A stretch of 64,000 nucleotides of DNA, taken from NCBI GenBank assembly GCA_020629515.1, contig JAHDDE010000005.1:62001-126000 (forward strand). Reading direction: 5' to 3'. Under the pieces are notes generated by a model. It did not search any database, was not told the DNA's origin, and saw nothing but the letters and a program-made list of their open reading frames with translations. Position 1 is the first letter of the stretch. Every line of letters starts with the position of its first letter. Source of the DNA: Saprospiraceae bacterium. Its GTDB lineage: Bacteria > Bacteroidota > Bacteroidia > Chitinophagales > Saprospiraceae. The translations under genes and the position numbers were made by a program. Shown here in pieces: positions 30,434 to 41,182 of the stretch.

Positions 30434-31312
30434 TCAGTTATCATCAGGGCAGTCTACCGAGACCGTACTCAAGGAACCATTATTATTGACCGTTATGGCC
30501 CAGCAACTGCCGTTTTGTGCTTTCATAATAATCCCTGAATATTCTTTATCGACATATAAGTGATCAGCAAATGACGCTATACCAACGACTTCATTATTTA
30601 GATCACATGCATTACCTATTCCATCGTTATCTATATCTTCTTGGCCAGAATTAGCCACTTCAGGGCAATTGTCTATATCATCATCCACTCCATCTCCATC
30701 TGAATCATTATCAACTACTAAGCTTAGGATAAATTGAGAGTCGTTATCACATAAATCGGTGACATTGAATATCACAGCAACAGAATCATCGCAACCTATG
30801 GAAAAATTGGAATCATATAATACTGAAATACTCGAAGGGTCGGAACCACAATTATCCTGAAAAGCCATATTTTCTATCTGAGATAACCAAGTTGATTTAT
30901 TACTCATATCGCTACAACTTGCATAAGTAACAACAGGAAAGTCCGGACTAAGTGTTGGTGGAGAATTGTCCTCAATTGTTAAAAATGCAGACGTAGTTTC
31001 AAATTGAAAGCATTCTGAAAATGGATCAAAATCATCTGGAATCTCCGAAAGTTCAAAACTTATTTCAAATTGTCCACAACCAACTCCAACTTGTGATTCC
31101 CAATCAACTAACCAAGATACATTACAAGTGGAATTATAGTTATTTGAATTATTGGTGTAGTTATCAACCCAAGCTTGAATGGAAGTTGACACATTTCCAT
31201 CACTGCAATTAATTGTTGTATCGTTTGGTGCAATAATTATTAAATCTCCTTAACTATATACACTAAAATTGAACAATAAAGTAACAATCAAACTGATGTA
31301 TAAAACCCTCAT
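30434..31312 (-). pseudogene. HYR / thrombospondin type 3 repeat secreted protein interrupted by one in-frame TAA
   Basis: The track ORF begins at a GTG (31192) in mid-domain. Reading further upstream in the same frame gives 'GDLIIIAPNDTTINCSDGNV' back to a TAA at 31250-31252. Beyond it, still in frame, is a complete signal peptide from an ATG at 31310-31312 ('MRVLYISLIVTLLF...SVYS'). A CAA-to-TAA change would explain it, because Bacteroidota signal peptides commonly end in '..SQ'. The mature part has two HYR-like Cys-rich segments, a thrombospondin type 3 calcium-binding repeat ('DSDGDGVDDDIDNCP') and a small C-terminal domain. No T9SS tail was seen. It is a recent nonsense pseudogene, a sequencing error, or a stop-readthrough gene. 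Confidence 0.75.
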
Positions 31313-31354: not shown

Positions 31355-32161
31355 TTATCCCATCTCTGATACTTCCATCATCGCATCTTCTACTTGATGC
31401 ACCATCTGGGTATATTCAGTCGTACGCTTTGTCATCTTATTCCTTTCAAAGGGCAAGTTGACTTTTATATGTTTTACAAATTTAGATGGTTGAGACTTTA
31501 GAATATAAATATCATCTCCCAAATAGACAGCTTCTGAAATATCATGTGTTACAAACAAGATGGTAGACTGAAACTGATGCCACAAACTAATTAACAGATC
31601 TTGCATTTGGAGGCGGGTCTTTATATCCAGCGCACCAAAAGGTTCATCCATCACTAATATCTTGGGATTGGCTAATAGACTTCGAGCTATAGCAATTCGC
31701 TGTAGCTGTCCTCCTGAAAGAGTCGGATACTGAGCAAATTTATTCTCATGCCCCTCTAATCCTACCAACTTTAACATCTCCATAGCCCTTTCATCTCTTT
31801 CTGCTTTGGTCACTCCTTGATACCTGAGAGCCAATCCTACATTATCCAATACTGTCATCCAAGGCAAAGAAGAATACTGTTGAAAAACCATACTTACCCT
31901 ATCACTTTCTGTGCGTTCCCTACCATGAATAAGAACTCTCCCTTGAGTGGGTTCTTGTAGTCCTGCTATGTATCTCAGCAAGGTCGACTTGCCCGATCCT
32001 GACATACCTAAAATCACGACAAACTGGCCCTGATCAGGCTTATCTTCTACTATAAAGTCAAGATCTTTAATAATCCAACTTTGACCGCCATCATAAGATT
32101 GCCCTATGCTTTCTAGCCTTATTATATCATTTAAGCCAGTATCCTTTATTACTTCACTCAT
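31355..32161 (-). CDS. ABC importer ATP-binding protein (nitrate/sulfonate/taurine type)
   Basis: 268 aa. Walker A 'GMSGSGKST' is at about 52-60, the signature is 'LSGGQLQR', Walker B 'ILVMDEPFGALD', and the H-loop 'VTHD'. The sequence is closest in style to SsuB/TauB/NrtD ATPases. It would power import of the ligand captured by the binding protein encoded two genes upstream. Its start overlaps the permease stop by 4 bases. It is the last gene of the seven-gene minus-strand block; the broken HYR gene follows 42 bases later. Confidence 0.92.
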   Translation of the reverse strand: MSEVIKDTGLNDIIRLESIGQSYDGGQSWIIKDLDFIVEDKPDQGQFVVILGMSGSGKSTLLRYIAGLQEPTQGRVLIHGRERTESDRVSMVFQQYSSLPWMTVLDNVGLALRYQGVTKAERDERAMEMLKLVGLEGHENKFAQYPTLSGGQLQRIAIARSLLANPKILVMDEPFGALDIKTRLQMQDLLISLWHQFQSTILFVTHDISEAVYLGDDIYILKSQPSKFVKHIKVNLPFERNKMTKRTTEYTQMVHQVEDAMMEVSEMG

Positions 32162-33273
32162 GATACTGCTTTTGATTTCTTGATTAGATACTCGCCATAT
32201 AATGTGAAAAGAATAGCGGACAACAGAATTACTACTACAAAAATCACTATAGGAGCTGATTTTAACCCAATTATACTATTGAGCAGCACTGCTATTAGTA
32301 ATCCCAGCAATATGGTGTAAACTCCAAATTTCGCTTCTTTTATACCAGGAATTACAGATTTGAAATGCTTATAGGGGAATAATCTCTTACCAAGAAAAAC
32401 AAATATTCTATCTTGAATAACTCCAATAAATATGATAACTATGAGTATGGCAAATACTTTTTCTATGTAGCCTTGTCGTGCTTTGATATATATCAAAGAC
32501 CCGATGCCCCCTTCCCTTTTCAATAGTTCTGCAATAATGATATATGTCCATGATATCGCAGTAAGTACCCTAATATCATCAAATATAGCTGTCATTACAG
32601 AGGGAATATACACTGTCTTTATCGTATGCCAATCAGACGCTCCAAGAGTATGAACTGTCTTGAGGTATACATCCTTTACCTCCCAGATACGTTGGACCAC
32701 TACTGGTAATAAATAAACTATTATACCAAATGCTAAAAATGCAACCTTCATACCATCATCCAATCCAAACCAAAGTATAAATAATCCCGTCAAAGCGGTT
32801 AAAGGCAGAAATCGCATAGCATCAATCTGCTTAGAAAAAAGACCCCGAAAAATAGGGAATAGACCTATCAGGAAACCTATAGGTAGTGAAACTAAAACGG
32901 CCCAAACATATCCCTGAAGATTTATCCATATTGATCTGAGCGCATTAGGGATTAATTGATCTGCTGAGATCAACGAAGGGAAAGACTTGAAAACTGCTAG
33001 TGGTGTAGGGAGAATCTTATAGACCTTTTCAAATTCCGTTGCATTAGCAAATAATATACTATCGGCTCGAGCAATAGAATCTAAAGCCTCTAAATCCGCC
33101 TCTTCTCCGATCGAAGTAGGCAAGGATTGATTATATCCTTCTAAAATTGGTGTTTTCTCAGAGAAAATCTCGGCCAAGATCCACCAAAAAAGAAGAAGTA
33201 CTATGAAACCTAAAAAGGAATATAGTAAGTCTTGTTTTCTCGTTAACTCCCCTCTAAGTTTAAATAATGACAT
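32158..33273 (-). CDS. ABC importer permease (SsuC/TauC-like) with an extra N-terminal periplasmic segment
   Basis: 371 aa, longer than the ~260 aa of typical SsuC/TauC permeases. The C-terminal portion has the BPD_transp_1 fold with 'LGASDWHTIKTVYIPSVMTAIFDDIR', the coupling-helix region, and 'GGIGSLIYIKARQ'. The first helix ('FIVLLLFWWILAEIF') is followed by about 60 mostly polar residues before the next helix. At the C-terminus two further hydrophobic segments extend beyond the standard core. These extensions could contact the OmpA-fused binding protein. It overlaps the ATPase gene by 4 bases and lies 8 bases after the binding-protein gene. Confidence 0.88.
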   Translation of the reverse strand: MSLFKLRGELTRKQDLLYSFLGFIVLLLFWWILAEIFSEKTPILEGYNQSLPTSIGEEADLEALDSIARADSILFANATEFEKVYKILPTPLAVFKSFPSLISADQLIPNALRSIWINLQGYVWAVLVSLPIGFLIGLFPIFRGLFSKQIDAMRFLPLTALTGLFILWFGLDDGMKVAFLAFGIIVYLLPVVVQRIWEVKDVYLKTVHTLGASDWHTIKTVYIPSVMTAIFDDIRVLTAISWTYIIIAELLKREGGIGSLIYIKARQGYIEKVFAILIVIIFIGVIQDRIFVFLGKRLFPYKHFKSVIPGIKEAKFGVYTILLGLLIAVLLNSIIGLKSAPIVIFVVVILLSAILFTLYGEYLIKKSKAVS

Positions 33274-33281
33274 TTAACTAT

Positions 33282-34871
33282 TTAATCTGCAACTAACTCA
33301 AAGTCTGTTCTTCTATTTTGAGCTCTACCCCGCTCTGTTCCGTTATCTGCAATGGGCTTATTTGGGCCATTTCCCACCACAATAAATCTGTTTTGAGGCA
33401 TTTGATAGGTGGTAACCAAATAATTAACAACTGATTGAGCTCGTTTTTTAGATAATTGCACATTCATATTGTAATCCCCTGTACTATCTGTATTCCCCTC
33501 TATACGTATTCTATTATTTGCAAAGGCTTTAGCAATATCAACAAACTCTTTATCAATGATATACTTAGCATTTTCGTCTAAGTTAAACTCTCCAGTCCTA
33601 AAACTTATACTTACTTTTTTACTTGCTATTGCTTCTTTTTTAGTGTCCGCCACTGTTGCTTGGGTAAACGTCTTGGATGCTTCGGCGCTGTGTTGGCTTC
33701 CAGATAAATTACTTCCAACAACAAATGAAGGGTATGATATCAATCTCCAGTTTGGCACATTTCCCTCTATGAAGCCTAAATCTTGGTATTTTATAGCCAT
33801 GTTGGAGTATAGATTATTACCTGTGACTCCTTTGTAATCAGAATTGAGCCCAAAAAAGTTTTGATTATCTCCATGTGTGGTTAGTCTAACATTGCCTATC
33901 ATCTCATCTGCCTCAGCAGAACTTAGCGCTGTACCTCTTTCTGTAAATTCTCTGGCCAATATATCTGCTGCATGCTTTCTGGCAACAGGGTCAGAATTAA
34001 TTTCTGCTGCTCCACGCATCCAACCTTCATAAAGCTTAGCTAATTTATCCGCATTATTACTGACATAACTTCTTTTTGCCATAAATACATCAGCTATTAT
34101 ATATGCCGCAGATCGTGTACTTTCTAAAACTCTCGATCCAGGTACAGCTTTAAGACTTAGTATATCATCTGGACTCCATACCACTGCGGCATCTACTCTT
34201 TGAGCCTTAAACACTTCAGCCGCGTCTATAGCACTGGCTTGTGGTACAATCTCGACATCCTCCACAGTTAGCCCACCAGCATCAAGCATCCAGAGCAAAA
34301 AGGAATGTGATGGAGTTAATTCAGCTACAGCAATTTTCTTGCCTTTGAGATCAGAAACTTTGGTGATACCTCTACGAGCTACAATAGCATCTCCACCTCT
34401 TGACCAATCGGCTTGCCAAACAATCACTGGATCAAAATCTTTTAACCCATTAACTTCTGTAGGAAAAGCATCAATCGTCTGCCAAAGAAGATTCACTTCA
34501 TCTGCCCTGAAGGCATTCCTTGAAGCTTCAAAATCATCTAATACTTGAAATTCTACTTTCAATCCATAGTCCTTGTAGAATCTCGATGCTTCACTTGCCT
34601 CAAAGCCTTCATTAAAATATTGGCCTCCGGCGTATCCGCCCCATGTGACGACTCCAATCTTAATGACATCATCATCTTTTTTACCAAAAGAAAAAGGGCT
34701 TTTCTTTTCCGAAGTTTGTCCCGAAGATGCGACCTCTTCAGTACTTTGTTCTTTGAGATCCTGTCCTATACTTGTATTATTTAAAAAATAATATCCTGCA
34801 TACACCAATGCTCCTACAATAGCAATAGTGATAAGCAATTTAGAAAACATCGTTAGTCTTCGCTTAGCCAT
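33282..34871 (-). CDS. ABC substrate-binding protein (NMT1/SsuA-like) fused to an OmpA peptidoglycan-binding domain
   Basis: 529 aa. An N-terminal signal anchor ('LLITIAIVGALVYAGYYFL') is followed by a linker, then a periplasmic binding domain (about 68-385) with 'IKIGVVTWGGYAGGQYFNEGF' and 'SDLKGKKIAVAELTPSHSFLLWML', like NMT1/SsuA proteins. The C-terminal ~115 residues form an OmpA-like domain with 'IRIEGNTDSTGDYNMNVQLSKKRA' spacing and 'RGRAQNRRTDFEL'. The binding protein is thus tethered at both ends, inner membrane and peptidoglycan. A similar fusion is annotated in databases as 'phosphate ABC transporter substrate-binding/OmpA family'. The ligand is not deducible. Confidence 0.9.
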   Translation of the reverse strand: MAKRRLTMFSKLLITIAIVGALVYAGYYFLNNTSIGQDLKEQSTEEVASSGQTSEKKSPFSFGKKDDDVIKIGVVTWGGYAGGQYFNEGFEASEASRFYKDYGLKVEFQVLDDFEASRNAFRADEVNLLWQTIDAFPTEVNGLKDFDPVIVWQADWSRGGDAIVARRGITKVSDLKGKKIAVAELTPSHSFLLWMLDAGGLTVEDVEIVPQASAIDAAEVFKAQRVDAAVVWSPDDILSLKAVPGSRVLESTRSAAYIIADVFMAKRSYVSNNADKLAKLYEGWMRGAAEINSDPVARKHAADILAREFTERGTALSSAEADEMIGNVRLTTHGDNQNFFGLNSDYKGVTGNNLYSNMAIKYQDLGFIEGNVPNWRLISYPSFVVGSNLSGSQHSAEASKTFTQATVADTKKEAIASKKVSISFRTGEFNLDENAKYIIDKEFVDIAKAFANNRIRIEGNTDSTGDYNMNVQLSKKRAQSVVNYLVTTYQMPQNRFIVVGNGPNKPIADNGTERGRAQNRRTDFELVAD

Positions 34872-35057
34872 TTTTTTTCGCTTTTATAATTTCTTTGTTC
34901 AGAATTTCAACAGTTTCTTGCTTAGAGAACGTTCCGTTGTAAATAGAATTTTCACACTAATTCTCTACACAGAAACCTGTCTTGAATTGAGAAACACAAA
35001 AATAATAGTTTTTGAATAGGTGTGAGAGAATTCCTAAGTATTGAGGGGCTTCAAAGC

Positions 35058-36071
35058 TTAATCAAATAATGAATCGTACTGATTCGCCCTTTCGACCCGC
35101 TCTTTACTTACCATAGACTCATTTAAGTCGAGCGTCTCAGCTTTGTCACCTTCCAGCAACAAACTTTCCTTTTCACCTAATAAAAGAAGCGAATTCTCCT
35201 TCTCCCATTGTTCAAGCATTTTCATCCCTTCTTCTTCAAATATGCCATTCTGTAAGTCTATACTTCCCATAAAGCTTTCTGACATCTCCATGAATCGCTC
35301 CATCTCTCCAACTTTATTACTGACATCATCTGCGACCGCCTCAAGCGCCATTTCAAACATCGCACGTTTATCAGTATTGCCTCTTATGACATTCATAGCA
35401 GACGACATAGCGCTATGTCCAGCTTTCATGGCTTTAAGCTCTTGTTCTTTTATTTCGACTTGATCGGCCACATCCTCTTTCAATATTTCTGAGTTCTCAT
35501 ACATTTTCTTGAGTACTCTATAAAGCACTTCCATTTTAGAATATAGATCTTCATACTTCAGATTGGATTCTTTCAGTCTACCTGCCTTACGACTCCTCAA
35601 GATCATTTGAGATTTTTGATCACTCTGTTTGGCCTCCTTCGCCAATGTAAGGTTACTAGCTATCTCTTTCTTATTGTTGAGTATGAGCTCTTTTAGCTTG
35701 TGCATCTGCCCTCTAAGTTGAAGTACCTGCTTATTCATCTTTTTAAGATTAGCAGTCATATCCTCAACATAGTTCTTGAGTATTGCAATTGGATCGATCT
35801 GAACGAACAAACTGGTGATCCATCTCATCGCACTTTTATACATGTACCATATCAGACTCCGTGCTTTGCTATCAAGCGCCATGTATATGATCAGCCCTAA
35901 AACCATAATAATTCCTGCCAATCCAAGCATAGAAGATGTGGCAGCAATAATCGCAGGGAGTGCACTAAATAGTAAAAATCCGCCTCCTATTACTATCGCC
36001 CCTAAAGTCAAGGCTCCCGTTACACCCTCGGGTTTTCTCCAAAATGATTTAGGCTTATAATTTGAGTCCAT
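35058..36071 (-). CDS. PspA-like coiled-coil membrane protein
   Basis: About 337 aa from the internal ATG (the track start is TTG two codons before). Two hydrophobic segments lie at about 18-65, then a long helical region (about 85-285) with PspA/ESCRT-III-like character: 'DPIAILKNYVEDMTANLKKMNKQVLQLRGQMHKL', then alternating charged heptads. Unlike classical PspA, which is peripheral, it is membrane-anchored. PspA proteins bind and remodel stressed membranes. It sits 186 bases upstream of the binding-protein/OmpA gene on the same strand, suggesting a joint envelope-stress role. Confidence 0.65.
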   Translation of the reverse strand: MDSNYKPKSFWRKPEGVTGALTLGAIVIGGGFLLFSALPAIIAATSSMLGLAGIIMVLGLIIYMALDSKARSLIWYMYKSAMRWITSLFVQIDPIAILKNYVEDMTANLKKMNKQVLQLRGQMHKLKELILNNKKEIASNLTLAKEAKQSDQKSQMILRSRKAGRLKESNLKYEDLYSKMEVLYRVLKKMYENSEILKEDVADQVEIKEQELKAMKAGHSAMSSAMNVIRGNTDKRAMFEMALEAVADDVSNKVGEMERFMEMSESFMGSIDLQNGIFEEEGMKMLEQWEKENSLLLLGEKESLLLEGDKAETLDLNESMVSKERVERANQYDSLFD

Positions 36072-36177
36072 ATACAATTCTTAAAACAATAAAATTATGA
36101 AGATATTTCAATAATGCACTCGAGGTTTAGACTAATACCGATAAGAATAAGAAATATGAGAGGCCTTCTAAGATATC

Positions 36178-37176
36178 TTATGCTAATTTGGCCCTTAAAA
36201 CACTATAGATACTTTCAAAAGACCTATGATTCAGAGGAAACTCCATGATAACATGTAACATACTCAAAAGAGTAATAAATATGATACCCACTCTAACATC
36301 AATAAGATGAAGAAGAATAGAAAAAAGCCAAATACCTACGGAAAGTATTAATTGTGGCTTAGGTATTTTATGCCATTTAATAACTTCAGTTTTCGAGAAC
36401 CAATTCAAATAATGGTAAGTGTAAGCGAATGCAATAAAGCCCTGAATCCTCAATCCATTTGGAGAATCTAAAATAAAAGTCTCATTAATAGAGTAAATGA
36501 CGGCATTAAGAGCTTGTCCAATTCTGAAGAAATCTCCTTCTATAAAAATGTTTTGCACCACTCGATTGTCCAATACCCTTCCATCAATATCAGGAATTAT
36601 AAAGAATAAAATATTACAGGCCATGAATACTATAAAAGACAGCAGACCAATTTTGGAACTACTCTTTAATGCTCCATCTAAGATAAATGCACCTGTAAAT
36701 ATGGTAGTATGTACTAAAGTAGGTATGAATGCACCAACTATAAGTGAAAAGTAAAAATTATGCGACAGACTCAACCCAATCACAAATGCTACCACTCCTG
36801 ATAAAAACAAGAAAAGTTTACTAACTTTTTTGGTCAGAAAGAAAGATAAAACGAAAGATGATAAAATAAGCGAGATCAAAATGTATGACAACTTTATGGT
36901 AACATCTTGAGGAAAGCTTATCCAATTTAATGAACTGTCTAAATCTATTAGAATTATTACTGTGACTATGATTAATCCTAAGACAAATAGTATCCTCCAA
37001 AAACTAGAATTATAAGAAAAGAAATTCCTCTCCTTCAACCAAGATAGTTCAGTCATGTAGTGCAATGGTCCTAAAACTATATAACTAAAAAGAAAGAGTT
37101 CAAAAGGAAATTTAAGCGCCCCTATAAATGAAAATAGCATCAATAAAATATTGACGCTATTTATATTTTTGATCAT
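36178..37176 (-). CDS. Multi-pass membrane protein of unknown function
   Basis: 332 aa with about nine or ten hydrophobic segments. Conserved-looking features include 'GPLHYMTELSWLKERNFF' near residue 37 and 'YTYHYLNWFSKTEVIKWHKIPKP' near residue 255, both with histidines next to membrane segments. The layout is vaguely reminiscent of Brp/Blh-type or other His-containing membrane enzymes, but I do not recognise the family. I do not see the Cys/Arg/His pattern expected of an exosortase. It begins 12 bases after the stop of the IPTL-CTERM gene and is very likely co-transcribed with it. Confidence 0.6.
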   Translation of the reverse strand: MIKNINSVNILLMLFSFIGALKFPFELFLFSYIVLGPLHYMTELSWLKERNFFSYNSSFWRILFVLGLIIVTVIILIDLDSSLNWISFPQDVTIKLSYILISLILSSFVLSFFLTKKVSKLFLFLSGVVAFVIGLSLSHNFYFSLIVGAFIPTLVHTTIFTGAFILDGALKSSSKIGLLSFIVFMACNILFFIIPDIDGRVLDNRVVQNIFIEGDFFRIGQALNAVIYSINETFILDSPNGLRIQGFIAFAYTYHYLNWFSKTEVIKWHKIPKPQLILSVGIWLFSILLHLIDVRVGIIFITLLSMLHVIMEFPLNHRSFESIYSVLRAKLA

Positions 37177-37188
37177 TTTAGTCAGTTT

Positions 37189-37656
37189 CTATGACCAGAT
37201 AGATTTGATACTTTTTTGTCTTAATGCGACTATCCCAATGCTCACTAAAATAATGCTTAAGATAATCAGTCCCCATTCTCCAAGAGTCGGAATAGTAGAT
37301 GCAGCTAAAGCCGGCCCTATCAATAAAGAAGAAATAGATAAGCCTGCGCCATTAAGCATTTGAAGCGAAAGAGACGAACCTCCTCCGCAACTTAACATTA
37401 GATCAGAAAAAGTCCCTTCTTCTGTGAATGTATAAGTAAAAACTCCTTCATCTCCCATCACTACGATTTCAGGATCCGAAGAAATCGTCAGTTCTTGTTG
37501 CATGTCAGAACAATGAAAAGAAGTGCCCGAATCTAAAGTAAAAGTGACTTGTTGACCAGCCAATGGTGAATCTGGGCTAACAGTTACTGAAGATGCTTCT
37601 CCAGCAATCAACACAGACGTCAAACACATTACAAGGAATAGCAGTGTATATTTCAT
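37189..37656 (-). CDS. Secreted IPTL-CTERM protein
   Basis: 155 aa. A clear signal peptide ('LLFLVMCLTSVLIAG') is followed by a ~90-residue Ig-like segment with paired cysteines. The end is 'IPTLGEWGLIILSIILVSIGIVAL' followed by a basic tail. This is the IPTL-CTERM sorting signal, a tripartite motif-helix-basic tail recognised in other bacteria by exosortase-type enzymes (XrtH). It would be anchored in the membrane or processed. No exosortase is in the window. The next gene, a multi-pass membrane protein, lies 12 bases downstream. Confidence 0.85.
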   Translation of the reverse strand: MKYTLLFLVMCLTSVLIAGEASSVTVSPDSPLAGQQVTFTLDSGTSFHCSDMQQELTISSDPEIVVMGDEGVFTYTFTEEGTFSDLMLSCGGGSSLSLQMLNGAGLSISSLLIGPALAASTIPTLGEWGLIILSIILVSIGIVALRQKSIKSIWS

Positions 37657-37693
37657 GGTTTTTTTTGTGAAAATAATACTTAATTCCGTGATT

Positions 37694-38386
37694 TTAACTC
37701 ACATATTGATTGATTTTCTCTAAATCATCTTGTATTTGTCCTAACACCATATTGTACGATGCATAGAATCCATCTTTGGTAGCTTCTGCTTTAGCCATTG
37801 TCTCATTAATCTTACCTTCTATTTTAGATAGTTCATCTTTTGATTTAGCTATTTCTTGCTCAAGTTTTTTTATCTGTTCTTCTTTAGTTTTAATTGCATT
37901 GTGAAGATTTTTTATTTTAGCTTCTCTTTGATCAACCTGAGTAGATTTTTGTTTTTGAAAAGCCTCTGCAAATTTGGCCTCCTCTTTTTCTAACACTGAA
38001 ATGTATCTTTTAGCGCTTTCATTGAGCTTTTTCTTACTTAGTCCCATAGTTTGCGCCATGGCAAAGGCATTTTGATAACGCTTAGCCTCATCAGATTCTA
38101 TTTTGGATAATGACTGAAGTGATTGCTTATATTCTAAATAATCAAAACCCTCAATATTATTTTCTTCAATAGACTTTAGTAGAAGATCGACAAATTTATT
38201 ATTCGGTTTGGCTGATGCACCAGTCTTATCCAGTTGATTAATTGACCCCGTGTTACTCCCAGTTTTTTTACTTTTTGTTGAAGATATAGGAGGATTTTTT
38301 GGAGCTTTTGTTGATGGGGATGCTGGACTATTCTCCACCCCCTCTTCTATCACAAATATTGATTTCAATTTTTTAAACATACTCAT
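37694..38386 (-). CDS. Cytoplasmic coiled-coil protein, unknown function
   Basis: 230 aa with no signal peptide or transmembrane helix. The N-terminus is basic and low complexity (Ser/Thr/Pro/Lys). The middle is a helical bundle ('FDYLEYKQSLQSLSKIESDEAKRYQNAFAMAQTMG' region) and the last ~110 residues a strong coiled coil ('AKIKNLHNAIKTKEEQIKKLEQEIAKSKDEL' region). It is the first gene of the minus-strand block holding the PspA-like protein and ABC importer. A scaffold role is plausible but unproven. Confidence 0.6.
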   Translation of the reverse strand: MSMFKKLKSIFVIEEGVENSPASPSTKAPKNPPISSTKSKKTGSNTGSINQLDKTGASAKPNNKFVDLLLKSIEENNIEGFDYLEYKQSLQSLSKIESDEAKRYQNAFAMAQTMGLSKKKLNESAKRYISVLEKEEAKFAEAFQKQKSTQVDQREAKIKNLHNAIKTKEEQIKKLEQEIAKSKDELSKIEGKINETMAKAEATKDGFYASYNMVLGQIQDDLEKINQYVS

Positions 38387-38558
38387 ATTACGATCTAATT
38401 AATACTTAATAAATCTTTTAGGCTCCATAATTCTACTAAACCGTGAAAATACTATATCTACGACCTTTAAATGAAATCCTCTTTCTCATATTCTTATTTT
38501 ATTGATCTAATCTATAATATCTCTACTTTCGTTGCTGACTAATTTAAAATCATACGCT

Positions 38559-39818
38559 ATGATCTACGTAGATAATGAAATTACTCAGCTGAATAAAGTC
38601 ATCACTCATTTTCCAGATGAAGGAATATCTCGTATATCTCCTAAAAGGGCTGAAGTCTTACTATTTGACGACATCGTATTTTATCCTTTGATGCACGAGG
38701 AGTACAGAACTTTTCAAAGGATTCTTCATTTATTCGTGGGTAGTAAAAATGTCTTAGAGACTCAAGATCTTATAGAACAAGCCGTCGAATGTTGCCCTGA
38801 TGTTGAAAAAGATCTGATTGAACAAGTCATAGCATTTGAAGAGTTACCCAAGTCGTACAATAAATACTTATCCAATTTAAATGCTTCGGATCTTAGTAGA
38901 GTGCTTATTACGGGTTACCTGAAGGAAGATGACCGCATCTTATTTGACCCTATTCCTAATTACATGTTTACACGAGATATCGCAGTAACTATAAAAGATC
39001 ACATATTAATCACTAAAGCGGCTAAAGAAGCAAGGTTCAGGGAAAATTTATTAAGTAGGTTTATTTTTAACCATCATCCCGAATTCAAGCATCTTGCAGA
39101 TAATTCTAAAATTATTGATCTAAACGATATAGAACTTTTCCCTCCATCACGTCGTGCCGAAAGCGTATGTGCCGAAGGAGGAGATATAATGATGTTTTCG
39201 CCAAATCATTTGTTGATAGGATGCAGCGAAAGAACATCAGCATATGCTTTTCAGAGCATAAAAGACAAAATATTTGAATTGGATTTGGTAGAAAATGTGG
39301 TCCAGATTAACATTCCAAATGAAAGAAGCTTCATGCACATTGACACCCTATTTACTCGAGTGAATCATGATGCCATAGTCTGTTATAAACCTATTGTTTT
39401 TGATGGCGAAGGATCCAATGTAATCGTCCATAACAAAAAAGGCAAAGAGAGAATTTACTCATCTATAAAAAACTTCGTTAATGAAGAAGTGAATTCTGAC
39501 ATGAATTATATTTTCTCTGGTGATGGGCTTTCCCCTTATCAGGAGAGAGAACAATGGACTGATAGCTGCAACCTTGTATGTGTAAAACCGGGTGTAGCGA
39601 TAGGTTATGACCGCAATCTGAAAACTTTAAAGTCATTCGAAAAAGCAGGTTACAAGATTATAGACGCAGAAGACATTTTCAGACAATCTCATAGTGATAG
39701 CAATTTTATTAAAAATCTGGATCGCACCATTATCACTATACCATCAGCAGAGCTATCAAGAGCTCGAGGAGGATCACACTGTATGACATGTCCTATTAAT
39801 AGATCAAATTCCGTATAA
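38559..39818 (+). CDS. arcA: Arginine deiminase
   Basis: About 419 aa from the ATG giving 'MIYVDNEITQL'; the track start is TTG nine codons earlier. It shows the catalytic signatures of the guanidino-group hydrolases: 'FTRD', 'AEGGDIMMF', 'MHIDTLFT' and the nucleophilic Cys about 408 in 'GGSHCMTCP'. It would hydrolyse arginine to citrulline and ammonia in the cytosol. arcB and arcC are not adjacent, so the complete ATP-yielding pathway is not shown here. Its TAA is followed immediately by the next start codon. Confidence 0.87.
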   Translation: MIYVDNEITQLNKVITHFPDEGISRISPKRAEVLLFDDIVFYPLMHEEYRTFQRILHLFVGSKNVLETQDLIEQAVECCPDVEKDLIEQVIAFEELPKSYNKYLSNLNASDLSRVLITGYLKEDDRILFDPIPNYMFTRDIAVTIKDHILITKAAKEARFRENLLSRFIFNHHPEFKHLADNSKIIDLNDIELFPPSRRAESVCAEGGDIMMFSPNHLLIGCSERTSAYAFQSIKDKIFELDLVENVVQINIPNERSFMHIDTLFTRVNHDAIVCYKPIVFDGEGSNVIVHNKKGKERIYSSIKNFVNEEVNSDMNYIFSGDGLSPYQEREQWTDSCNLVCVKPGVAIGYDRNLKTLKSFEKAGYKIIDAEDIFRQSHSDSNFIKNLDRTIITIPSAELSRARGGSHCMTCPINRSNSV

Positions 39819-40226
39819 ATGGTTAAAGCAATCTTTAAAAAACGAGTGCTATATGCTGAAACAGATAAGATGGGTTTTCTTTATTATGGCCATTATGCCA
39901 TGTTATATGAAATAGGTCGAAGTGAGTTAATACGTGACTTGGGAATTTCTTACCATGATCTTGAAGAACGAATCGAGGTTATGATGCCAGTTCTAAGTCT
40001 ACAGTGTCGATACAAGTTACCAGCTAAATATGATGATCTATTAAGTATTAAGACAGAGATACGGAGCCGCCCAACAAAAATGATCACCTTCAACCATGAA
40101 GTATATAACCAAGAGAATCAATTATTAAACACGGGAGAAGTAAAACTATTTTTTGTCGATATGATAACTAATAAGAGAATATCATGTCCTGACTATCTTA
40201 ATCAAAAATTAGATTCATTCTTTTGA
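39819..40226 (+). CDS. 4HBT/YbgC-like acyl-CoA thioesterase
   Basis: 135 aa, typical hot-dog fold length. It opens 'RVLYAETDKMGFLYYGHYAMLYEIGRSE', with the Asp in 'ETDKMG' at the catalytic position, and continues with 'YKLPAKYDDLLSIKTEI'. It would hydrolyse acyl-CoA or acyl-ACP thioesters. The ATG directly abuts the arginine deiminase stop, and the end overlaps the YihY gene by 4 bases, so the three are probably one transcript. Confidence 0.88.
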   Translation: MVKAIFKKRVLYAETDKMGFLYYGHYAMLYEIGRSELIRDLGISYHDLEERIEVMMPVLSLQCRYKLPAKYDDLLSIKTEIRSRPTKMITFNHEVYNQENQLLNTGEVKLFFVDMITNKRISCPDYLNQKLDSFF

Positions 40227-41182
40227 AGTTATCAGCAAAAGAAATACAAAAACGCTTTTATAGGTGGATCGGACTAAAGAAGATCATTATTTGGTCTAAG
40301 AAATTTACGCTACCAGGATTTAGCAATGTACCTCTTTATGATATATTACTTTTTATATATCGCGAATTACAACAGGATAATTTGCCCACCAGGGCCAACT
40401 CTGTTGCCTTTAGTTTTTTTTTATCCATATTTCCATTTATCATATTCGTTCTTCCGCTTTTGAGCATTTCTCCATGGGCCGATAGCACAATTCAAGAGTT
40501 CGAATCTTCGATCGATGGTGTTTTCCCTCAGGTTGCAAAGGATTATCTAATGAACATAATTGATGGCATTAAAACTGAAGGAAACTATGGTTGGCAAAGT
40601 ACCGGTTTTATTTTATCATTGTTATTTGCCTCCTCTGGTATGCTTACTTTGATGTATGGATTTGATAAGAGTTATGATAAGAGCTTTAAGAACAGAAATT
40701 ATTTTCAAAAAAGGTTAGTTGCCCTAAATTTGACCATATTGTTTGCCTTTATCATCTTTCTTTCTGTGATATTAATCATTCTTGGCAATCAAGTTTTAGA
40801 TCTACTCATAGAAACTTTTGGATTAAATTCATTTAATTCTGCCTTGTTTATTGGGCTCAAATGGATAGTGGTTATTATGCTGTTTTATTCCGTCATAACA
40901 GTGATATATCGCTATGGCCCGTCAACATATCGACCATTGAGATGGATCAATCCAGGAGCTACATTAGCCACGTTTAGCTCCCTACTGTGCTCCATTGGCT
41001 TTTCATATTTTATCAATAACTTCTCAAACTACAATGAAATATATGGCACTATAGGAGCTCTGATAGTACTTTTATTATGGCTTCAGATCAATGCATTTAT
41101 AGTTTTAGCAGGGTTCGAACTTAATGCCAGTATCATAGTAAATAGGGACAAAGGGACCTTAATTGGGCAAAATATCACATAG
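40223..41182 (+). CDS. YihY/BrkB-family inner-membrane protein
   Basis: 319 aa, TTG start overlapping the thioesterase stop (TTGA). About six transmembrane helices with the family hallmark 'ANSVAFSFFLSIFPFIIFVLPLL' and 'YRYGPSTYRPLRWINPGATLATF'. The family is widely conserved but its molecular function is not established; the old 'ribonuclease BN' label was an error. It is the third gene of a tight cluster with arginine deiminase and the thioesterase. Confidence 0.88.
   Translation: MKLSAKEIQKRFYRWIGLKKIIIWSKKFTLPGFSNVPLYDILLFIYRELQQDNLPTRANSVAFSFFLSIFPFIIFVLPLLSISPWADSTIQEFESSIDGVFPQVAKDYLMNIIDGIKTEGNYGWQSTGFILSLLFASSGMLTLMYGFDKSYDKSFKNRNYFQKRLVALNLTILFAFIIFLSVILIILGNQVLDLLIETFGLNSFNSALFIGLKWIVVIMLFYSVITVIYRYGPSTYRPLRWINPGATLATFSSLLCSIGFSYFINNFSNYNEIYGTIGALIVLLLWLQINAFIVLAGFELNASIIVNRDKGTLIGQNIT

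Follow-up and report, generated by a model that had tools for sequence, protein, structure and literature searches.

Gene order around the PspA-like gene

A 64,000-nucleotide stretch of the genome of a Saprospiraceae bacterium (GenBank assembly GCA_020629515.1, contig JAHDDE010000005.1, positions 62,001 to 126,000; hereafter the window) carries a cluster of minus-strand genes in which an ATP-binding cassette (ABC) importer lies beside a PspA-like gene. Comparison with related genomes showed that five of these genes, encoding a coiled-coil protein (CC), a PspA-like protein, a fusion of a solute-binding protein to an OmpA domain (SBP-OmpA), an ABC permease and an ABC ATPase, form a real association that is conserved across Saprospiraceae. 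Within it, SBP-OmpA is linked more tightly to the PspA-like gene than to its own permease. The first-pass annotation of the window had treated seven genes as one block; at 31355-38386 the open reading frames (ORFs) were indeed seven, all on the minus strand and of the kinds described, with Pfam and NCBIfam giving a family to the ATPase, the permease, SBP-OmpA and the IPTL-CTERM protein and no convincing one to the PspA-like, multi-pass and CC proteins of the window. The conserved unit consists of the five genes named above and not of all seven.

Gene order was compared in two samples, 61 relative genomes and 80 further related loci, some of them from the same genomes. The named relatives were almost all Saprospiraceae and the rest were assigned to Saprospirales, Chitinophagales or plain Bacteroidetes. 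The PspA-like gene was immediately upstream of SBP-OmpA and on the same strand in 65 of the 68 loci with sufficient flanking sequence (median gap, 83 bp), and the three exceptions kept a PspA-like gene elsewhere in the genome. CC was upstream of the PspA-like gene in 54 of 61 loci. The permease was downstream of SBP-OmpA in 38 of 55 loci, three of these at a distance of 2.7 to 6.5 kb, and 16 of the 17 genomes without a downstream permease had one ortholog elsewhere (51-61% identity). The distant permease adjoined an ATPase, with no recognised SBP-OmpA, in the ten relatives examined. In the cultured strain Lewinella cohaerens DSM 23179, locus L144 has CC, PspA-like and SBP-OmpA genes, and the permease is on a separate contig. 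The near-invariant adjacency of SBP-OmpA to the PspA-like gene, set against a permease that is often displaced but kept, is the basis for ranking the first linkage as the tighter one.

Co-occurrence followed the same pattern. Among the 61 relatives, PspA-like proteins were detected in 36 genomes, CC in 35, and strong SBP-OmpA and strong permease matches in 26 each, the last two together in 25. The two mismatches were G011, where the permease next to SBP-OmpA is cut by the contig end, and G029, which has the permease alone. Twenty-five of the 26 genomes with SBP-OmpA had a PspA-like protein, the exception being G013, in which SBP-OmpA is at a contig end; in 23 of these 25 the two genes were close together on one contig, and the SBP-OmpA gene of G028 lies on a contig of 3.3 kb. 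A neighbourhood comparison had been named as the check on the proposed grouping, and it revealed strong family-wide linkage, also present in L067 and L068, rather than a transporter trio (SBP-OmpA, permease and ATPase) that is never found near PspA-like or CC genes elsewhere.

An alternative is that the trio simply imports a small solute, by means of a binding protein anchored to the wall, and stands beside CC and the PspA-like gene through shared ancestry, and perhaps shared regulation, with no physical or functional coupling. This explanation agrees with the intact ABC motifs, with a binding domain nearest to those for sulfonate, taurine, urea and nitrate, with the several genomes that have CC and PspA-like genes but no trio, and with a divergent SBP-OmpA trio in G020 that adjoins a proline racemase gene and not a PspA-like gene. 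However, plain synteny does not predict that SBP-OmpA stays by the PspA-like gene even when permease and ATPase are elsewhere, and other neighbours were less conserved: across 45 loci, PspA-like was found in 42 and CC in 38 versus 13 for arginine deiminase, 17 for a thioesterase and 17 for YihY. We regard an uncoupled importer as rather unlikely. The gene following the ATPase was variable, with the largest cluster accounting for 6 of 36.

Composition of the locus

The host assembly comprises 3.9 Mb in 98 contigs. The features of the locus are listed in Table 1.

Table 1. Genes of the cluster in the window, in minus-strand order.
Feature	Position	Strand	Length (aa)	Remarks and evidence
CC	37694..38386	-	230	First gene of conserved unit; ORF, family alignment, fold
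IPTL-CTERM protein	37189..37656	-	155	Genus-level insertion, outside conserved unit; PF18203 (1.4e-6)
Multi-pass membrane protein	36178..37176	-	332	No known family; genus-level insertion, outside conserved unit
PspA-like	35058..36071	-	337	Alignment, PF04012 matches of relatives, fold, Foldseek, hydropathy
SBP-OmpA	33282..34871	-	529	Pfam, alignment, PDB relatives, OmpA motif
ABC permease	32158..33273	-	371	BPD_transp_1
ABC ATPase	31355..32161	-	268	Four motifs intact

Junctions of 4 to 12 bases had been reported within the cluster, and three of the six are of this kind: 12 bp between the IPTL-CTERM and multi-pass genes, 8 bp between SBP-OmpA and the permease and a 4-bp overlap of permease and ATPase. 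The others are wider, with 37 bp between CC and the IPTL-CTERM gene, 100 bp between the multi-pass and PspA-like genes and 186 bp between the PspA-like gene and SBP-OmpA. The mechanical ORF of the PspA-like gene begins at a TTG at 36077; the ATG at 36071 was taken as the start, which makes the gap upstream of it 106 bp.

The IPTL-CTERM and multi-pass genes lie between CC and the PspA-like gene in the window genome. In G002, a near relative of the same genus, CC and the PspA-like gene are 75 bp apart with neither gene between them. Members of the multi-pass family turned up sporadically, in 7 of 41 relatives, with no linkage to the cluster, and lay beside CC and the PspA-like gene only in the genus of the window. 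That all seven genes make up one system is favoured by their common strand, by the two genes lying 12 bp apart inside the cluster and by the multi-pass gene of G001, which is at the same place but contains stops. Most relatives, however, resemble G002 in having no such genes at this position and, with the multi-pass protein unlinked elsewhere, the comparative data contradict a seven-gene system, which we consider highly improbable. The two genes are an insertion limited to the genus, passengers rather than part of the conserved unit. The classification of the IPTL-CTERM protein held, with a match to PF18203, and an XrtH exosortase scored above the family cut-off in the host genome (G000:C95:14330-14767), which is consistent with sorting of this predicted protein by XrtH.

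Two further features flank the cluster. Just downstream of the ATPase is an ORF on the minus strand (30434-31192, with a putative start) that contains a thrombospondin type 3 repeat. An arginine deiminase-like gene and the next two genes (38532-41182) are on the opposite strand and recur next to CC in roughly one relative in three.

The wall-anchored receptor and its transporter

The annotation of SBP-OmpA as a fusion was borne out by Pfam matches to NMT1 (6.7e-10) and OmpA (1.3e-19). The protein has an N-terminal hydrophobic helix, predicted to be an anchor and lacking a lipobox cysteine, then an NMT1/SsuA-type binding domain whose PDB relatives place it nearest to sulfonate, taurine, nitrate and urea types, and then the C-terminal OmpA domain. 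The peptidoglycan-binding motif TD..G...N..LS..RA..V was present in 79 of 80 SBP-OmpA proteins, and the remaining one was cut at a contig end. In OmpA domains generally, the aspartate and arginine of this motif bind diaminopimelate. Alignment also revealed strongly conserved motifs in the binding protein, DWSRGGDA and VDAAVVWS. In the ATPase, Walker A, signature, Walker B and H-loop are all intact, so that the trio has the binding protein, permease and ATPase with catalytic motifs that are expected of an NMT1/SsuA-type ABC importer. The first-pass annotation had suggested that this importer may sense or transport some component of the envelope and not a nutrient, which would be a conjecture on present evidence; the motifs of its ATPase are intact.

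The permease has an extended extracytoplasmic loop following its first transmembrane (TM) helix. The G031 permease (L036:6393-8087; 564 aa) has a cadherin-like domain (PF00028, 7e-11, residues 101-154) after that helix, and the L104 permease is of similar length. A Haem_oxygenas_2/TENA-type gene lies between permease and ATPase in G006 (L035:11333-12019); it was rejected as a clue to the substrate since it was a one-off among the loci examined. The SBP-OmpA, permease and multi-pass copies of G001 (L055, G001:C25) contain several in-frame stops, for which decay and poor sequence are indistinguishable because that assembly is 58% complete.

A second alternative holds that the trio was recruited as a sensor or mechanical tether between wall and membrane, with ATP hydrolysis driving the PspA-like polymer in place of an AAA+ ATPase and nutrient import lost. 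No AAA+ gene was found in the window cassette and none was recurrent near the loci of annotated relatives (no search was made elsewhere in the genome), whereas published operons have one; this, the tie of SBP-OmpA to the PspA-like gene and the cadherin-like domain in one relative's permease would fit such a recruitment. The strongly conserved binding-protein motifs, and the fact that genomes with SBP-OmpA have kept permease and ATPase, argue instead for solute transport having been kept, and a recruitment of this kind with loss of import appears improbable.

The PspA-like and CC proteins

The PspA-like protein has two N-terminal TM helices followed by PspA/ESCRT-III-type helices, as indicated by alignment, hydropathy and predicted fold. 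Its description as PspA-like was only partly reflected in family searches: the window protein itself had no match to Pfam PspA_IM30 (PF04012), but 8 of 20 aligned relatives had weak matches at E <= 0.01 (best, 5.9e-6), and the L067 homolog matched at 9.8e-7, under the curated cut-off. A PDB sequence search with the family profile gave no match, and fold comparison was therefore used. The AlphaFold model consists of two N-terminal hydrophobic helices, another helix and a long hairpin; at its modest confidence, it has the amphipathic helix and subsequent long helical hairpin of the PspA superfamily. The six best Foldseek matches in the PDB were all Vipp1 (probability 1.00, E 0.005-0.03), with PspA and Snf7-type proteins ranking lower.

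No PspA above the Pfam cut-off was detected in the host genome. The 61 relatives usually had two PspA-like copies per genome; the four second copies sampled in a tree clustered together with modest support (83/59) and had no SBP-OmpA alongside. In a sample of 297 genomes of the phylum, PspA-like proteins were found in nine, six of which were Saprospiraceae, and SBP-OmpA at E <= 1e-40 only in the host. Plasmid records gave no match to the PspA-like protein.

CC is predicted to have an N-terminal amphipathic helix, a disordered linker, a small helical domain and a long helical rod, and the mean predicted local distance difference test (pLDDT) score of its model was 84. Fold search against the PDB detected no structural relative of CC (best E, 4.5). 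A relationship of CC to the PspA-like protein was considered and rejected on this result and on a profile comparison, which gave a probability of 5.5%.

Proposed function

Gene order supports a link between the importer and envelope maintenance, because the association is strong across Saprospiraceae and recurs in L067 and L068. In this respect the first-pass annotation was upheld, although its inclusion of the IPTL-CTERM and multi-pass genes was not. We tentatively favor the view that the importer works and that its wall-anchored receptor is coupled to a PspA-type polymer on the cytoplasmic side of the membrane, the coupling being suggested by the order of the genes. The N-terminal helix of SBP-OmpA would fix the protein to the inner membrane and its OmpA domain would fix it to the wall; it would bind a small solute of the sulfonate, taurine, nitrate or urea class, which would then pass to the permease and ATPase. 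The two-TM PspA-like protein would assemble an ESCRT-III-type polymer on the cytoplasmic face of that membrane site, and CC, with its amphipathic helix and long rod, may help that assembly. The receptor-importer would most likely report the state of wall and membrane, or ligand supply, to the polymer, which would stabilize or remodel the membrane there while solute import still goes on.

Several observations weigh against a coupled importer and polymer. The loci share descent and their counts are not independent. SBP-OmpA and the PspA-like gene are on different contigs in G037, and the trio is away from the PspA-like gene in L074, L125 and L128. Several members of Saprospiraceae have CC and the PspA-like gene without the trio, so the PspA-like protein does not need it. 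The 100- and 186-bp gaps in the window are wide enough for separate promoters; a search with the Bacteroidota promoter pattern gave two matches in the window, none inside the cassette and not above chance, and pattern scans of this sort, being at chance level, speak neither for nor against such promoters. The model of the PspA-like protein has a mean pLDDT of 64, with the C-terminal part below 50, and no Foldseek E-value was below 0.001 (all were 0.005 or worse), for which reason the evidence from modeling for kinship with PspA, Vipp1 and ESCRT-III is good but not conclusive.

A bolder proposal is that the wall-anchored importer might serve as the energy source or sensor for the ESCRT-III-type polymer, replacing an AAA+ ATPase. 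We consider this very doubtful; if true, wall-membrane distance or ligand state would control membrane remodeling. The control of assembly of PspA homologs that have no AAA+ ATPase was stated to be unknown (Ravi et al., 2024; PMC11237479), and a compact, conserved cassette that places a membrane-anchored PspA-like protein beside a receptor possibly bridging membrane and wall offers an opening on AAA+-free control of PspA.

Comparison with other lineages and known systems

CC, PspA-like protein, a 592-aa SBP-OmpA, permease and ATPase occur in the same order in L067 and L068, which belong to another family of the same class, and an NtrC-type regulator follows the ATPase in L067. Their trio is divergent, being as far from the window trio as the G020 trio is. 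Two Vibrio plasmids, pAM7 and pSEA2 (L177 and L178; NZ_AP019800.1 and NZ_AP019851.1), encode SBP-OmpA-type proteins, permease, ATPase, TelA and vWA proteins, and also a protein that has hydrophobic stretches near its N terminus and a helical tail, which was rejected as a PspA-like relative for want of detectable homology. These clusters are an analogous grouping in that SBP-OmpA proteins, permease and ATPase stand with predicted membrane-stress proteins; in contrast, TelA and vWA stand where the cassette has PspA-like and CC, and the binding proteins are about 25% identical. A literature search on TelA/vWA/SBP-OmpA clusters returned nothing on point.

The PspA-like protein resembles classical PspA/Vipp1 (PF04012) in its predicted amphipathic helix and long helical hairpin and in its best structural matches to Vipp1, but it has two N-terminal TM helices and scores under the Pfam cut-off. 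Domain searches detected no PspB or PspC, partners in classical psp operons, among the cassette proteins. The transporter belongs to the same binding protein, permease and ATPase families as NMT1/SsuA/TauA-type importers and has their catalytic motifs; it differs in that the binding protein, an OmpA fusion, has predicted anchors in both membrane and wall, and in that roughly one locus in three has the genes for binding protein and permease separated.

The first-pass annotation had found no described system of exactly this composition. Such operons have been reported, with PspA/TM-Snf7, an AAA+ ATPase, an ABC ATPase, a permease and a PBPB-OmpA protein (for example, OGG56892.1), as has a PspA/Snf7 neighborhood from Bacteroidetes that includes a third gene for a coiled-coil protein (CBH24266.1) (Ravi et al., 2024, mSystems, PMC11237479). 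OGG56892.1 was compared with the Saprospiraceae cassette by its published description, not by sequence. Both place a TM-bearing protein of the PspA superfamily beside an ABC ATPase, a permease and a PBPB-OmpA protein, but the Saprospiraceae cassette has no adjoining AAA+ gene, is led by CC and has its SBP-OmpA linked more tightly to the PspA-like gene than to the permease. The cassette is a family-wide variant of the described PspA/Snf7-AAA-ABC kind of operon, and its quantitative addition to that kind is a wall-anchored receptor tied to the PspA-like gene more than to the permease.
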